This document shows, in pieces, positions 207 to 38,719 of a stretch of 40,827 bases of DNA (the stretch's first letter is position 1; every line of letters begins with the position of its first letter). The position numbers and the translations under genes were made by a program. The notes under the pieces were generated by a model. That model was not told where the DNA came from. It ran no database searches and saw nothing but the letters and a program-made list of their open reading frames with translations. The DNA is taken from assembly GCA_027488865.1 (NCBI GenBank), contig JAIYAU010000040.1, forward strand, positions 1 through 40,827, given 5' to 3'. The stretch comes from Cytophagaceae bacterium. GTDB taxonomy: Bacteria; Bacteroidota; Bacteroidia; Cytophagales; UBA9547.

Positions 207-603
207 ACCACAAAGATAGTATGGCACAGTGCAACCAGCGTGCATGGTGGTAAAAAGTTTAAAAGTAATTGGATGATTAAGGGACTACCATCGAATGACT
301 CTTGGAAGATGACCGTAGGATAAGCTTAGTCCCCTGACCCCGATGGGAGAATTTTCAACCTAGAATATACACCAAACACTATTCACAATTCTTTGTCAAT
401 TATCAATTCTCTATTATCTCATGGTTTAGGAGTATTTTTAATAATGTTTTTAAAATAGTCTAAAAATAATAAATATATATCGAATAATTTAGACTAATAA
501 AAACGATAGATGTAATTACCACGTAAGAATTAAAGTCAGTTATGTGGTATAGCTTACTTTGGAAAACTTTTAATCATTATTCTGCCTCTTAAACTTACCT
601 TTG
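207..603. other. Gene-free upstream region between divergent genes
   Basis: No credible coding frame is seen on either strand. It holds the presumed promoters of the left-edge minus-strand gene and of the surface operon starting at 604. A seven-base inverted repeat (GGGACTA at 281-287, TAGTCCC at 327-333) encloses about 39 bases and could form a weak stem. The second half is very AT-rich. A near-consensus -7 element (TTACTTTG, 554-561) lies about 42 bases before the ATG at 604. Confidence 0.5.
211..218 (-). promoter_or_regulatory. Putative -7 promoter element TATCTTTG
   Basis: On the minus strand this reads TATCTTTG, an exact match to the Bacteroidota -7 consensus TAnnTTTG. It lies just upstream of the left-edge gene. 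I see no convincing -33 element, so the call is tentative. Confidence 0.4.
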
Positions 604-1563
604 ATGAAATCATTTTACTATGTGTTATGCCTATTGTGGCTAAGTCATTTTACTTTTGCTCAAACCTCCGATAAAGGATTCTCATTTCAGGGATATGCTA
701 TTGACCAAGACGGCAAAGCGATTGGCAGCACAGGAATTACAGTTAGGTTTACCCTAAGTCCTGCATCAGGTACAGGTACTTATGTAGAGGAACACGTACT
801 TACTTCAGATCCTTTTGGGGTGTTTACTGCTATAGTAGGTAAGGGAACAAAACAATCAGGAGACGATTTTAAAACCCTAGATTATACACGCAAAGATATT
901 AAATACAGACTAAAGGTGGAGGTAAGAAAAACCTCGGGAGGTGTATATGCAACTATAAGTGACGCCGAATTAAATGCTGTGCCTTATGCTCGGAAGGCAG
1001 AAAATGGTGTACCAGTAGGAACTATAATAGCATTTGCTGGTCCTAAAACAAAAATTCCAGATGGTTGGGCATTGTGTGACGGTTCACAAAGGGACGGAAC
1101 AGCCGCAGATTGGAAACAGCTTTATGATATGTTAGGCACGTCTTGGGGCGGCTCTGGCACAAATTTTAACTTGCCTGACTTACGCGGAATGTTCTTAAGG
1201 GGTGTGAATGATGGCCGTACTGGTACTTACAGCGATCCTAATGCAGCCACCAGAACTGCTCAACAAGCTGGTGGTAATACTGCAGATAATGTTGGCTCTG
1301 TTCAAACTGATGAGTTTAGGCAGCACACTCATACCGCAACAAGCTCCACCGATGGAAGTCATACCCACGTATGGAACAATGGCACGGAAGGTGATGATAG
1401 CGGTTCAGGTGGCTCAAACGCTGAATATACTAGAACAGGTGGAACTGTGACAGATGCCATACAAGCGGCAGGTAACCATTCCCATACAATTACCGTTCAG
1501 AATAGTGGTGGTCTTGAAACGAGACCGATTAACGCGGGCGTTTTCTATATAATCAAATACTAA
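604..1563 (+). CDS. Secreted protein with phage tail collar domain
   Basis: A 319-residue protein. Residues 1-20 are a signal peptide (hydrophobic stretch ending TFAQ). Residues about 26-135 match the N-terminal beta domain common in Bacteroidota secreted proteins (FQGYAIDQDGKAI ... LNAVPYARKA). From about residue 138 a tail collar domain (Phage_collar type) follows: GTIIAFAG, the PDGWALCDGS box, NLPDLRGMFLRGVND, then a His-rich end with QHTHT, SHTH and HSHT, ending TRPINAGVFYIIKY. In this setting such domains probably serve as surface or fibre-tip modules rather than virion parts. The first gene of a close-packed operon, 23 bases before the next start. No T9SS sorting domain is visible. I chose ATG 604 over TTG 601. 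Confidence 0.8.
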   Translation: MKSFYYVLCLLWLSHFTFAQTSDKGFSFQGYAIDQDGKAIGSTGITVRFTLSPASGTGTYVEEHVLTSDPFGVFTAIVGKGTKQSGDDFKTLDYTRKDIKYRLKVEVRKTSGGVYATISDAELNAVPYARKAENGVPVGTIIAFAGPKTKIPDGWALCDGSQRDGTAADWKQLYDMLGTSWGGSGTNFNLPDLRGMFLRGVNDGRTGTYSDPNAATRTAQQAGGNTADNVGSVQTDEFRQHTHTATSSTDGSHTHVWNNGTEGDDSGSGGSNAEYTRTGGTVTDAIQAAGNHSHTITVQNSGGLETRPINAGVFYIIKY

Positions 1564-1586
1564 ACTAAACTAATAATACATTGCGT

Positions 1587-4500
1587 ATGAATCCCTATTT
1601 GTTTAAAGTAAGGGGGCTAATGTTGTTTATTTTAGTCCTTTTAAGTATTCAATCTTTTGCTCAATCGAACAATCCAATTGTAATTGGTTATACTTCGGGT
1701 CAATCAGTTACCACACCAGACGGATCTAAATACTCGTTTTCAGGGGGTTCTGTGGTAGGTACAACCCATCAATCTCTTACACCTGGCACAGATAAATGCA
1801 TGTTAGGGATGAAATATGGAATCGTATTTGCCGAAAACGCCTTTGACAAAGATCTGTTTGTATCTAAAGGTTATTTCCCTGACTATATTCAACTCAGATG
1901 GGAATTAAAAAGATATCAATCTTCTGTTACCAATTTTAGAGTTTTTAGAAAAAAACTTGGCACAACAGATGCTTTTGCACAGGTAGCTTTTCTATCTAAG
2001 GATGTATCAGACTGGCGCGATGAATTTGCAGAATCAGGTGTTTTATATGAATATAAACTTTTTGTAGAAGGAATATTTCCCAAAGAACAAAAGTTTTTGA
2101 ACATGTTGACGGGTATTGGGTTTCGATTACCTGCTGGAAATATTTCTGGCAGAGTTACCTATAAAGGTGGTGCTGCTGTACCAGGGGTAAGTTTGATAGC
2201 TCAATCGGATGACGACTTTTCTGGTAGCAGTCTCTATTTGAATGGTACAAATGCCTTTATGGGAATTTCTGCCCCAGCCAATGATCCTTCCTTTAAATTT
2301 GATACCGCATTTACCTTTCAAGCTTGGGTTTTGCCGCAATCTACTGGTAATTCCATTTTATTTAAGAAGGCAAATCAATATTCAATAACTCATTCCAATA
2401 ACAGAATCACCTTTAGGGCTGGTACTCAAAATTTAATTTTAAACTTTACTCAAAAAGTAGATACATTTTTTCATGTTTCTGCAGTAAGGCAAAGTGATTC
2501 AATCAAGCTATATGTTACTTACAAGGAGGGACAAACGTTTACAGCTAGTGCTAAACTAACTAGCACCACACCTGCAAACAACGGAACTGTCTGGATTGGT
2601 AAAGATTCTACAAATACGCAGTATTTTAGAGGAAATATTGATGAAATAAGAATTTGGCAAAGGGCACTTAAAAGTGAAGAGGTCTTAACCCGATCTTTAA
2701 TGTATATCGCTGGTACAGAGAATTTATTATCAGCATATTATCGATTAAACGAAGGTGTCGGGGACTATTTTTATGATCTTTCAAGGAGAGGTTTTACTTA
2801 TAATGAAAAACATGGAGGTATATTTAACGCCACGTGGTCTAAGATCATCCCAAATACAAATCAGCTGGCTGTAAAAGGAATCACAGATAATAACGGTAAC
2901 TATATTATTTCTGGCATACCTTATACTTCTGACGGATCAACCTATACCATCGTGCCAGCTTATCTAACGCACACGTTTGATCCTACTCAAAAGTTGTTAT
3001 TTATTGGGCCAGGTTCCAACAACTTTAGCGATATAAACTTTATAGATGTTTCTTCTTTTCCTGTTCAAGGATATGTGTACTATAAAGATACTAAGTTTCC
3101 TGTGGAAGGAGTTCAAGTGAAAATAGATGGACGTACAGCAGTTACCGCTGAAGGCAATGTAATTACTACTGACAACAAAGGATTTTTCTTGATAGATGTT
3201 CCCATTGGTAAGCACAATTTACAAATGGCAAAGTCTGGACACGTATTTCGATCTGATGGTCGATTCCCAGCAGCTCCGAATAGCACCTTCGATTTCCAGT
3301 CAGCCTATACTATTCAACAGGATTTTATCGATTCTACGTTGATTAAGGTAATTGGTAAAGTAGTAGGTGGCCCTATTCAAGGTAAGAAACCAAACGGCTA
3401 TGGAAAGGTGCTAAATAATTTAGGCAACTCTACAATTGTTTTTACCACACAAAAGGAATACATCCTTACTGATAAGTCTGTTGATGTTTTGAGTATTTGG
3501 CCTAATATTTATTCAAGGGGTGGGGTTAAAACTAACGTAGGTAATACAAAATATTCTATTTTAAACGCAAGTCCTAAGCGTATCAACGTAGAAGGAGATG
3601 TCAATACAGGTGAATTTACAGCCTACTTACTTCCAGAAAAATACGTTATTAAATCCATTAATGCAGGTTCTTATACCTTCGATGATAGCTACCATACTAC
3701 CATAGATTTAGAAAATGCAGTATTAGGTTTGACAAGAACCGACACCACACTTGTGGACTCATTATTACTAGGAAATGGAAAGAGAAAGTATATTTATAGG
3801 TATGACACAGTTTCCTACAACTCAGAAAGGGATTTTGTTTTTAGAGTAATACCTGATGTGAGTGTTACCCATAAATCTGGTGGTGTCTGTTTTTGGGATA
3901 CTACCACAACTACACTCACTGGTTCTACAATAAAAATTGTTGGTGCTGGCAAAGTTCCATTGACTGATTATCCTTGTTTCACACAAAGAAATAAATATCA
4001 ACTCAAGGTGAGTGTTTTTGAAAAGTACATCAACTCTGATAAATCTAATGTTGAGGATAGAGTGCCGGTTTCAGATGGTGAAATTGAAATTCAAAATGAA
4101 CTGGCTACAGACAATAGCAAGCAAATACTTAAAATTGGTGAGTTGGGGTCTGTAGATTATGAATTTTTTGGTGGGCTACCAAATATAACCACTGGTGGAA
4201 TAGGAGATTACTTAAAGCCATTCACAGTTGTAGCACTTACTGGTAAGAATAAAAATATTTCTACAAACTGGAGATACAATGGAGGTAACTTTTATGGGTA
4301 TGTATTAGGAGGTATGCCTACTGGTAATAACTTTGTAACTACTGGTCCTAACAACGTGGAGATGATACTTAGAGATCCTCATGGTACAGGTAGCTACGCT
4401 TATTTAGAAAAAAGTTCTTCTTTTTCAAAAACCAAGAATTTCGAGGTAACCAACCAAAATTCAATCTCAATGGCCAACAAGATTGATTTTGGTGGCAAAG

Positions 4501-34424: not shown

Positions 34425-35180
34425 ATGTTAAAAATAGATAATCTTCATGCCAATATAGGTGAAAAGGAAATATTAAAAGGACTCAATCTAGAAGTAAAAG
34501 CAGGAGAAGTACATGCTATCATGGGGCCAAATGGTGCTGGAAAATCCACGCTCTCTTCAGTGTTGGCTGGTAGATCGGATTATGATGTTACCGCAGGAAC
34601 TGTAGATTTTAGAGGTAAAAATTTATTAGATCTTTCTCCAGAAGATAGGGCAAGAGAAGGGGTGTTTATGGCATTTCAATATCCAATTGAAATACCAGGT
34701 GTAAGCACCACCAACTTTTTGAAAACTGCCGTAAATGAAGTAAGAAAATATAAAGGACAAGAACCGTTGGATGCAATATCTTTCCTCAATATGATGAAAG
34801 AAAAAATGAAATTGGTGCAAATTGACCAAGCACTTTTGAGTCGTTCTCTAAATGAAGGCTTTTCTGGTGGCGAGAAAAAGAGAAATGAAGTGTTTCAAAT
34901 GGCCATGTTAGATCCCAAATTAGCTATTTTGGACGAAACTGACTCTGGGCTTGACATCGACGCGCTAAGAATCGTTGCTAACGGGGTTAATTCCTTAAAA
35001 TCCAAAGACAATGCATTTATTGTTGTAACCCACTACCAACGTCTTTTGGATTATATCATTCCTGATTACGTACATGTTTTGTTCAATGGCAGAATAGTAA
35101 AATCTGGCACAAAGGAATTGGCCTTAGAATTGGAAGAAAAAGGTTATGATTGGATAAAAGAGGAGGTTGCATTAGGTTAA
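34425..35180 (+). CDS. sufC: SufC, Fe-S cluster assembly ATPase
   Basis: A 251-residue ABC-type ATPase of exact SufC length. Walker A is GPNGAGKSTLSSVLAG. The Q-loop region is FMAFQYPIEIPGVSTTNF, a SufC hallmark. The signature is LNEGFSGGEKKRNE. Walker B is LAILDETDSGLDIDALR, followed by the His switch in VVTHYQRLLDYI. SufC powers the SufBCD scaffold that builds Fe-S clusters. It is the first suf gene here; sufB, usually just upstream, is replaced by the PorE-like gene. sufD follows after 60 bases. Confidence 0.95.
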   Translation: MLKIDNLHANIGEKEILKGLNLEVKAGEVHAIMGPNGAGKSTLSSVLAGRSDYDVTAGTVDFRGKNLLDLSPEDRAREGVFMAFQYPIEIPGVSTTNFLKTAVNEVRKYKGQEPLDAISFLNMMKEKMKLVQIDQALLSRSLNEGFSGGEKKRNEVFQMAMLDPKLAILDETDSGLDIDALRIVANGVNSLKSKDNAFIVVTHYQRLLDYIIPDYVHVLFNGRIVKSGTKELALELEEKGYDWIKEEVALG

Positions 35181-35240: not shown

Positions 35241-36518
35241 ATGACTTTGGACAATATAACTCAAAATTTTAAAGATTTCGGCAATAAGAATTTGCAAATA
35301 GCTGAACAATCTTTCCATAGCTTTAGCAAATTGGGTTTCCCAACTCCTAAAAATGAAGAGTGGAAATATACAGATGTGTCATCATTTGTTAATCTTGATT
35401 TTAATTGGGATTCTGCCTCTACACTTACCAAGGCGCAAATCGAGGCAATTTTTATCAAAGGTCTTGAAGCGAATAATTTGGTGTTTGTAAATGGCAAATT
35501 TAAACAAGAGTTTTCTCAAATATTATCACCAAGTTCTGAAGTATTTATTCAATCTTTAGATGAGGCTGTCAACCAAAATATTGACCTCATCAATAACTAT
35601 TTTGCGAAAGAAATAGACTATCAGAATAATGCATTCTCAGCGCTTAATGTTGCTTTTGCGAGCAATGGCCTGTTTATACATGTGCCTAAAAATACTTACG
35701 TTCAATTGCCTATTGTTGTTTATTTTATAAATGATAGCCGAACTGAACAGGTTTTTTCTCAACCACATAATATTTATGTAGCCCAAGAAGGGGCAGAGGT
35801 TTCTATTTCGGAAATATTTGTGTCAGAAGGTTCGCAGCCGGCTTTTAGTAATCACATTACTGAAATTTCTTTAGATAGGAATGCCAAAGTTCAATACAAT
35901 AAGGTACAGATTGAAACGGGTGAAAATTATCATGTAGGCACAACCCAAGTACGACAATTAAAGGACAGTATTTTTACTGGTACCACCGTTACACTTGGTG
36001 GTAAGATTGTCCGTAACAATCTTAATATACTATTAGATGATCAACATTGTGAAGGGAATATGAACGGGCTTTATTTACTTGATAATGAATCACATGTAGA
36101 TAATCATACCGTTGCTGACCATGCAAAGCCCAATTCTGTAAGCAATGAACTTTATAAAGGTATACTATCAGGGCATTCTACAGGTGTTTTTAACGGTAAA
36201 ATATTTGTAAGGCAGGACGCACAAAAAACACAGGCTTACCAGTCTAACAAAAACATTTTATTATCAGACACAGCTAGTATGAATACCAAGCCACAACTTG
36301 AGATATGGGCTGATGATGTCAAATGTTCCCATGGAGCTACTTCAGGCCAACTTGATGAACAGGCGCTGTTTTATTTAAGGGCTAGGGGAATAGGCGAGGC
36401 TACAGCTAAAGCAATGCTTGTTATGGCTTTTGCCAAAGATGTAGTAGAAAAAATACAACTAGAGCCGTTGAGACATCATTTGATGGACTTGATAGAAACC
36501 AAATTGCAACAATCTTAA
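35241..36518 (+). CDS. sufD: SufD, Fe-S cluster scaffold subunit
   Basis: A 425-residue protein. The N-terminal helical part has FPTPKNEEWKYTDVSSF, the typical SufD opening. The C-terminal right-handed beta-helix carries LLDDQHCEGNMNGLYL, HVDNHTVADHAKPNS, ELYKGILSGHSTGVFNGKI and ADDVKCSHGATSGQLDEQAL, all conserved in SufB/SufD. ARGIGEATAKAMLVMAFA follows. SufD joins SufB and SufC in the scaffold complex. The missing sufB must be supplied from another locus. It sits between sufC and sufS in the usual order. Confidence 0.94.
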   Translation: MTLDNITQNFKDFGNKNLQIAEQSFHSFSKLGFPTPKNEEWKYTDVSSFVNLDFNWDSASTLTKAQIEAIFIKGLEANNLVFVNGKFKQEFSQILSPSSEVFIQSLDEAVNQNIDLINNYFAKEIDYQNNAFSALNVAFASNGLFIHVPKNTYVQLPIVVYFINDSRTEQVFSQPHNIYVAQEGAEVSISEIFVSEGSQPAFSNHITEISLDRNAKVQYNKVQIETGENYHVGTTQVRQLKDSIFTGTTVTLGGKIVRNNLNILLDDQHCEGNMNGLYLLDNESHVDNHTVADHAKPNSVSNELYKGILSGHSTGVFNGKIFVRQDAQKTQAYQSNKNILLSDTASMNTKPQLEIWADDVKCSHGATSGQLDEQALFYLRARGIGEATAKAMLVMAFAKDVVEKIQLEPLRHHLMDLIETKLQQS

Positions 36519-36560
36519 AACACTGCTAAACTAATTTACTTACCTTTTGGTTTTGTGGAT

Positions 36561-37805
36561 ATGATTACTGAAACTGCACCGTATACGACAATTGATATTG
36601 ACCAAATTCGTCTTGATTTTCCTATTCTTAATCAAAAAGTAAATGGGAAGCAGTTAGTTTATTTTGATAACGCAGCCACCACCCAAAAGCCGTCTCAAGT
36701 GATTGATGCAATCTCTGAGTATTATGAAGGCTATAACGCTAACATTCATCGCGGAATACATCATTTGGCAGAAAAAGCAACCAGTGCTTATGAAGCTACC
36801 AGGGCAACGGTAAAAACTTTTCTCAACGCTAAAAGCATTGAGGAAATTATTTTTACTAGAGGGGTGACAGAATCTATAAATTTGGTTGCTAATTCGTATG
36901 GACGCCATAACATACGGTCTGGTGATGAAATAATTATTTCTACCATGGAACACCACTCCAACATTGTTCCTTGGCAAATGCTTTGTGAAGAAAAAGGCGC
37001 AATCTTGAAAGTTATCCCTATCAATGAGCAGGGAGAGATTTTATTTGATGAGTACTTAAAATTACTATCTTCCCGAACAAAAATTGTTTCAATTGTTTAT
37101 GTTTCTAATGCATTGGGTACCATCAATCCTGTTAAGGACATAATTGAGGCTGCCCATAATGTGGGCGCAGTAGTACTTATTGACGGCGCCCAATCTACAT
37201 CTCACTTGGACATAGATGTACAGGATTTAGATTGTGATTTTTATACCTTTTCTGCACATAAGCTGTATGGACCAACGGGCGTGGGAGTGCTTTATGGTAA
37301 AAAGAATATATTAAATGACATGCCTCCTTATCAAGGGGGAGGGGAAATGATTAAGGAAGTATCATTTACCAAAACTACCTATAACGAATTACCTTATAAA
37401 TTTGAAGCTGGCACACCAAATATTGCCGATACCATTGCCCTAAAAGCAGCTATTGATTATATATCTAAATTGGGTAAATCCACGCTTGCAGTATATGAAA
37501 ATGAGTTATTGGCATATTGTACATCCCAACTTTTAGAGATTAATGGCCTAAGATTAATAGGAGAAGCAGATCAAAAGGTAAGTATTGCATCGTTTGTGAT
37601 TGATGGAGTGCATCATCAAGATTTGGCAATTTTGCTCGATGGTGACGGTGTGGCAGTGAGAACAGGACACCATTGTACACAACCTCTTATGGCTCGAATG
37701 GGTATTTTGGGCACCACACGCGCATCCTTTTCAAAAAAAAAAAAAAAAAGTGAAATTGACCTTTTTATTAATTCCTTAAACAAGGCCATAAAAATGTTAA
37801 AATAA
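36561..37805 (+). CDS. sufS: SufS, cysteine desulfurase
   Basis: A 414-residue PLP enzyme that removes sulfur from cysteine for Fe-S clusters. It has YFDNAATTQKPSQVIDAI, HRGIHHLAEKAT, the EHHSNIVPWQ region, the PLP lysine in TFSAHKLYGPTGVG, the catalytic Cys in VRTGHHCTQPLM and the substrate Arg in TTRASF. After that, KKKKK stands where SufS enzymes have a Y-N-T motif (expected form about FYNTK); it is encoded by 17 consecutive A bases at 37733-37749. The reading frame and length are unchanged, and SEIDLF resumes the family pattern. This is either a sequence artefact or an unusual replacement. I chose ATG 36561 over GTG 36555. sufE follows 16 bases later. Confidence 0.93.
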   Translation: MITETAPYTTIDIDQIRLDFPILNQKVNGKQLVYFDNAATTQKPSQVIDAISEYYEGYNANIHRGIHHLAEKATSAYEATRATVKTFLNAKSIEEIIFTRGVTESINLVANSYGRHNIRSGDEIIISTMEHHSNIVPWQMLCEEKGAILKVIPINEQGEILFDEYLKLLSSRTKIVSIVYVSNALGTINPVKDIIEAAHNVGAVVLIDGAQSTSHLDIDVQDLDCDFYTFSAHKLYGPTGVGVLYGKKNILNDMPPYQGGGEMIKEVSFTKTTYNELPYKFEAGTPNIADTIALKAAIDYISKLGKSTLAVYENELLAYCTSQLLEINGLRLIGEADQKVSIASFVIDGVHHQDLAILLDGDGVAVRTGHHCTQPLMARMGILGTTRASFSKKKKKSEIDLFINSLNKAIKMLK

Positions 37806-37821
37806 GCTTAAATGCTTGAGC

Positions 37822-38250
37822 ATGAGTACTGAAGAAATACAACAAAAAATAATTGAGGAATTTGCCTATTTTGATAATTGGGCTGATAAGTACGAGTACA
37901 TTATTGAAATGGGCAAAAAATTGCCCTCACTTTCGGATGAATTTAAGACTGAAGATAATAAGATAAAAGGGTGTCAATCAAATGTTTGGTTGCATGCAAT
38001 TATGCAAAATGGGTTAGTTGAGTTTAAAGCAGATAGTGATTCAGTTATTGTGAAAGGATTAATAAGTATGTTGATTAGAGTATTATCACTTCATACGCCT
38101 GATGAAATCATTTCCTCAGATTTAATGTTTATTGACAAAATTGGAATGACCCAACATTTGGCACAAACAAGATCCAATGGGCTTCTTTCTATGTTGAAAC
38201 AGATGAAATTTTACGCAATGGCTTATAAAGCTAAGGCACAAATAACATAA
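37822..38250 (+). CDS. sufE: SufE, sulfur acceptor for SufS
   Basis: A 142-residue protein. It shows the SufE pattern: FDNWADKYEYIIEMGKKLP, then IKGCQSNVWLHA with the sulfur-accepting Cys, VKGLISMLIRVLS and GMTQHLAQTRSNGLLSMLKQ. SufE takes persulfide sulfur from SufS and passes it to the SufBCD scaffold. It starts 16 bases after sufS; ATG 37822 is preferred over TTG 37816. The next gene begins five bases after its stop. Confidence 0.93.
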   Translation: MSTEEIQQKIIEEFAYFDNWADKYEYIIEMGKKLPSLSDEFKTEDNKIKGCQSNVWLHAIMQNGLVEFKADSDSVIVKGLISMLIRVLSLHTPDEIISSDLMFIDKIGMTQHLAQTRSNGLLSMLKQMKFYAMAYKAKAQIT

Positions 38251-38255
38251 CTAAA

Positions 38256-38564
38256 ATGGATTCAGAATTAAAAGAAAAGGTATTAGATGCCATTAAGACC
38301 GTGTTTGACCCAGAAATTCCGGTTAATGTTTTTGATTTAGGGTTAATTTACGATATTAATGTTTTTCCAGTTAATAATGTGCATGTATTAATGACGCTTA
38401 CAACACCTTCATGCCCTTCAGCCCAATCCTTACCAGGCGAGGTAGAACAAAAAATAAAGGAAATTGAAGGAGTAAATGATGTTACTGTGGAAATAACTTT
38501 CGATCCTCCATACAATACAGAGATGATGAGCGAGGTGGCAAAACTGGAGTTGGGATATATGTAG
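38256..38564 (+). CDS. SufT-like MIP18/DUF59 Fe-S maturation protein
   Basis: A 102-residue protein of the MIP18 (DUF59) family. It has TVFDPEIPVNVFDLGLIYDI, MTLTTPSCPSAQSLPGEVE with the conserved Cys, and VEITFDPPYNTEMMSE. In suf operons this protein (SufT) helps deliver or mature Fe-S clusters in target proteins. It is the last gene of the sufCDSE run, five bases after sufE. The call is firm for the family; exact partners are unknown. Confidence 0.9.
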   Translation: MDSELKEKVLDAIKTVFDPEIPVNVFDLGLIYDINVFPVNNVHVLMTLTTPSCPSAQSLPGEVEQKIKEIEGVNDVTVEITFDPPYNTEMMSEVAKLELGYM

Positions 38565-38641: not shown

Positions 38642-38712
38642 TGCCCGATCGTCTAATGGCAGGACAACTGGTTTTGGTCCAGTTTGTGGAGGTTCGAATC
38701 CTTCTCGGGCAA
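38642..38712 (+). tRNA. tRNA-Gln (anticodon TTG)
   Basis: A full cloverleaf of 71 bases. The acceptor arms TGCCCGA and TCGGGCA pair over seven bases with discriminator A. The D arm is GTC...GAC with TAATGGCAG in the loop. The anticodon stem ACTGG/CCAGT encloses TTTTGGT, giving anticodon TTG at the centre. The T arm is AGG-TTCGAATC-CT. CCA is not encoded. Confidence 0.95.
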
Positions 38713-38719
38713 CATTCTT

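Follow-up and report, generated by a model that had tools for sequence, protein, structure and literature searches.

A run of 17 adenines over the conserved Y-N-T motif of sufS in a Cytophagaceae genome assembly is almost certainly a technical artefact

RESULTS

The suf cluster and the A17 tract in sufS

The window, that is, the whole stretch of DNA analysed here (40,827 nucleotides), holds a suf cluster in which sufS is preceded by sufC and sufD and followed by a SufE-like gene and a further SUF-associated gene, these neighbours providing the cluster context. A run of 17 adenines (A17) lies within sufS, and the A/T run second to it in the window has a length of 8. The features are as follows:

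34425..35180, plus strand: sufC, ATPase
35241..36518, plus strand: sufD
36555..37805, plus strand: sufS, group-II cysteine desulfurase, an open reading frame (ORF) of 416 amino acids
37733..37749, plus strand: A17 run, overwriting the Y-N-T segment of sufS
37816..38250, plus strand: SufE-like gene, matching PRK09296 below its curated cut-off
38256..38564, plus strand: SUF-associated protein (TIGR02945)

Just downstream of the cluster, at positions 38642-38713, is a tRNA-Gln (anticodon ttg), the sole tRNA found in the window.

The sufS ORF is listed with a GTG start, has an ATG two codons downstream, and contains no stop across A17. The local reading at the tract is TTT TCA AAA AAA AAA AAA AAA AGT GAA ATT, which places RASF, a serine and KKKKK ahead of SEID. 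A first-pass annotation had put A17 at 37733-37749, and the letters of the window bear out this exact position. It had also proposed that five positions after the substrate arginine read KKKKK in place of a motif like FYNTK. The five lysines and the expected Y-N-T both stand, but relatives have S or A after RASF and then x-Y-N-T-x, often with K last, so that against those ending in K (x-Y-N-T-K) only four residues, not five, are changed. As the annotation had stated, the family pattern resumes right after the run, with an SEID that the relatives share.

Against the SufS subfamily model TIGR01979, the ORF scores 577.1 bits, above the curated cut-off of 475.1; against the stricter equivalog PRK09295, it scores 501.8, below the cut-off of 661. 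The RTGHHC segment with the catalytic cysteine is intact, as is the arginine of RASF, which we equate, by alignment, with Arg379 of Escherichia coli CsdB. Arg379 is given as the substrate-binding arginine of CsdB in PMC3343029. After the substrate arginine, where Y-N-T (or Y-N-S) is expected, the assembled SufS has KKKKK instead, and we judge this to be a fault of the sequence and not of the gene. The protein thus resembles the group-II SufS enzymes (TIGR01979; the closest chains are PDB 6c9e, 5vpr, and 8kg1) in its whole length, in RTGHHC, in the RASF arginine, and in its usual suf neighbours, but differs in having K-K-K for Y-N-T after RASF, a difference that we put down to artefact. No second SufS-like copy was found in this genome, the next two matches being 29% and 32% identical.

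SufS relatives across the tract

We compared the stretch from 10 residues before the tract to 12 after it in 109 SufS loci, made up of 29 relatives (of 30 loci in one search) and the best 80 of a second search. As at least 6 of the contigs, recognised by their equal lengths, are present in both collections, the 109 loci do not represent 109 independent genomes. The best-80 set may omit the window's own species, and the relatives searched included no second genome of its genus or species. The stretch is free of gaps in all 109 loci, and the motif at the tract is YNT in 105 and YNS in 4. The listed PDB alignments for SufS (6c9e, 5vpr, and 8kg1) are likewise gap-free at the tract (3/3), and a scan of the best 80 loci for A/T runs of at least 14 found none.

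Since all of the SufS loci are ungapped at the tract, the run took the place of an equal number of bases. The claim that frame and length are kept exactly is thereby confirmed, the ORF being open as well. The annotation had further held that A17 in relatives would speak against an artefact; at this site, neither an A-run nor KKKKK was present in any of the 109 loci.

A separate length class of A/T runs

Windows of 14 adenines (A14), counted over the whole genome and both strands, number 94 and merge into 19 runs of 16 to 25 bases. The mode is 17 (eight runs); the other lengths are 16 (two runs), 18 (five), 19 (two), 20 (one), and 25 (one). Genome-wide, there are no A/T runs of length 14 or 15. 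In the 138,496 bases that we read, A/T runs of length 8 occur 25 times and those of length 9 occur 3 times, followed by none of length 10 to 15 and then the 19 runs of 16 to 25. As these stretches were chosen to hold every run of at least 14 in the genome, the gap at 10 to 15 was rechecked genome-wide: 170 of the 194 A10 windows come from the 19 runs, and the 24 left lie in runs of 10 to 13. With few runs of 10 to 13 and none of 14 or 15, the long runs form a separate length class, and A17 greatly exceeds what chance would give. The longest G/C runs in the bases read are 7 long, and no N characters occur in these 138 kb. A fixed overwritten length of 16 extended by chance flanking adenines seemed a misfit to the two runs of 16 versus eight of 17, by estimate rather than by computation.

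Most of the runs lie within genes and leave the frame open. Twelve of the 19 are flanked on each side by 30 or more open codons, and for 2 others, in sufS and in a PorP/SprF-like gene, each flank reaches at least 17. Two further runs are found, one early in a subtilase-like gene and one right at the beginning of contig C33, within a DUF179 gene. The other three are outside long ORFs or at an ORF end (C4:41379 and C9:10 outside any long ORF; C4:40644 at the end of a 138-amino-acid ORF without a Pfam match). Besides sufS, runs are carried by genes for leucyl-tRNA synthetase (LeuRS), aspartate carbamoyltransferase (presumably PyrB), an IPP transferase (MiaA), a POTRA protein that we take to be BamA, and a DUF179/AlgH-like protein for which we use the name YqgE. 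Two glycosyltransferase genes are hit as well, as are those for proteins with type IX secretion tails and for peptidases S46 and M48. The sense-strand letter of the 16 gene-assigned runs is A in nine and T in seven; on the contig plus strand, the 19 runs are A in 9 cases and T in 10.

The runs are enriched near contig ends, which are weak spots of an assembly. Four of the 19 lie less than 1 kb from an end, against at most 0.56 expected (P = 0.002), and seven lie within 3.1 kb, against at most 1.74 expected (P = 0.001, with a cut-off chosen post hoc). Contigs C9 and C33 open with 9 and 5 bases, respectively, directly before a run.

When the runs are written as T, the T share of the relatives is about 0.69 over the first five positions and 0.31 over the last five (raw averages over per-position means of seven genes, which codon usage may influence). 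The start is T-richer than the end in six of the seven genes, with MiaA as the exception and the SufS site weak. If the T-rich start is real, it suggests that a false run would begin at a short true T-run and then overrun it.

Length-preserving overwriting at other genes

Homologue alignments were made at 7 of the 19 run sites, the genes other than sufS being compared with relatives of the same family. For LeuRS, the tract and its flanks are ungapped in 7 of 11 homologues, and the other 4 do not cover the tract; for PyrB, they are ungapped in all 8. The MiaA tract is ungapped in 8 of 11 loci and gapped in 3 low-scoring ones, one of them from this genome, which are taken as paralogues. Ungapped alignments were also obtained for BamA in 9 of 10 rows (two rows being one gene) and for YqgE in 7 of 8 homologues. 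The S46 peptidase, ungapped in just one of three homologues, is a weaker case. In the alignments, six genes (SufS, LeuRS, PyrB, MiaA, BamA, and YqgE) thus appear clearly to be overwritten without a change of length.

Examples of the replacement are IFLKLF to IFFFFF in LeuRS, PFLPDAN to PFFFFFY in YqgE, and, relative to a homologue 89% identical, FFALQK to FFFFFL in PyrB. Between the first-listed homologue of each gene and the homopolymer, 8 to 11 of 17 to 18 bases differ. Among the PDB alignments listed, those of PyrB are gap-free at the tract (3/3), and two of three for MiaA are ungapped, the third having a gap of one residue immediately ahead of it. For LeuRS and YqgE, the tract coincides with an edge of the PDB alignments, which are therefore uninformative on gaps.

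Runs in relatives and in other assemblies

The 58 relatives have 0 to 14 A14 windows each, against 94 here; 20 of them have any, and 38 have none. At least one A16 window occurs in 36 of the 193 other genomes of the order. By this count, the present genome (56) comes second to G191 (94) and is followed by G064 (43), G113 (39), and G185 (30), the last three belonging to three different families. Such scarcity among relatives and the scatter of high counts over other families put a lineage trait out of consideration. G191 has one listed run of at least 35 bases (from C1:676553), longer than the 16 to 19 bases typical of the tracts described below.

From the tracts listed in other genomes, we fetched 20, from two other families (G064, nine; G127, five; and G185, six). 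All 20 are 16 to 19 bases long, 16 being the search minimum. The fetched stretches contain two runs of 9 to 15, both in G185 and 9 and 10 bases long. At least 30 open codons flank 11 of the 20 tracts on both sides; the other 9 lack them. The one fetched tract outside this genome covered by a homologue comparison lies in a DEAD-box helicase of G064 (L219, ORF 291-1601, minus strand), in which the Walker A sequence TGSGK is replaced by KKKKK, free of gaps relative to DbpA.

DISCUSSION

Judging from these sequence comparisons, A17 is almost certainly a technical artefact that arose at the read or consensus level and is absent from the organism's DNA, because the genome has 18 more such runs, several of them overwriting conserved parts of core genes with the length kept. 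Ordinary sequence at 19 places would have been written as A (or as T, on the other strand) with the exact number of bases kept, yielding runs of about 16 to 19 bases. From the near-equal numbers of A and T runs on the contig plus strands, we infer that the error preceded contig orientation and arose during base calling, the processing of reads, or the consensus step. It may then have persisted at places that few correct reads covered. The first-pass annotation had favoured an artefact, such as a consensus error that substitutes bases, over simple slippage, a reading supported by the exact lengths, by the recurrence at core genes, and by the runs in three other assemblies.

A possible model for such an error is the writing of masked or uncalled read bases as A. 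This would resemble the present case in the A/T overwriting, in the preserved length, and, if it acted on reads, in the random strand, but alone it leaves the narrow length class and the T-rich start unexplained. Some 2-bit encoders and assemblers, Velvet among the latter, write N as A; this habit is not documented among the literature matches listed. Titles and abstract openings among those matches likewise describe no A/T-run artefact of the present kind, and we make no claim that it has gone unpublished. Masked read bases converted before assembly count under the artefact explanation favoured here. A separate matter is an N-to-A conversion applied to finished contigs or to scaffold gaps, which would agree with the lack of N characters in the 138 kb read. 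We regard it as extremely unlikely: conversion in finished contigs is rejected because it would not give 10 of 19 runs as T on the plus strand, and scaffold-gap filler is rejected because gap sizes are estimates, with which the codon number would not come out exact at six genes.

Explanations in which the run exists in the cell also fare poorly. A strain that truly has A17 would need to tolerate a SufS with KKKKK or to offset it with another cysteine desulfurase; the open frame, the otherwise intact appearance of sufS, and the two distant cysteine-desulfurase-like matches in the genome are compatible with this. Such a mutation is nevertheless very unlikely, as it would require like events at LeuRS, PyrB, MiaA, BamA, and YqgE with no net change of length, in runs whose lengths are set apart from all shorter ones, and as KKKKK is found in none of the 109 SufS loci. 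We know of no mutational process that overwrites sequence in this manner. That a new one exists, in which real poly(dA:dT) of about 17 bp spreads with preserved length from short native T-runs in core genes and is tolerated, or else undone in the RNA or in the population, seems to us exceedingly improbable. Least credible of all is a slippage-driven contingency tract serving phase variation. A long homopolymer within a gene is the usual form of contingency tracts, and the present runs share this feature with known contingency loci. However, slippage adds or removes bases, and contingency loci vary in length accordingly, whereas the runs here match the lengths of the relatives and replace residues. 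With lengths so exact, runs of 14 and 15 absent, and runs of 10 to 13 scarce genome-wide, slippage is rejected.

If the runs are artefacts, as we believe, they are of a kind that standard quality scores do not reveal. The genome is listed with a completeness of 99.98% and a contamination of 0.72%, scores to which the artefact is invisible, and because the reading frames mostly stay open, most frameshift checks would miss it as well. A/T runs of 16 to 19 bases combined with a nearly empty class of 10 to 15 could serve as a simple screen or quality flag. Conserved motifs, such as the YNT of SufS and the Walker A loop of the helicase, are silently replaced, and reading active-site changes off draft genomes could therefore mislead. 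In the present assembly, A17 should best be handled as unknown sequence of known length. The true sufS would encode the normal Y-N-T motif, and the SufS made by this organism is most likely an ordinary one.
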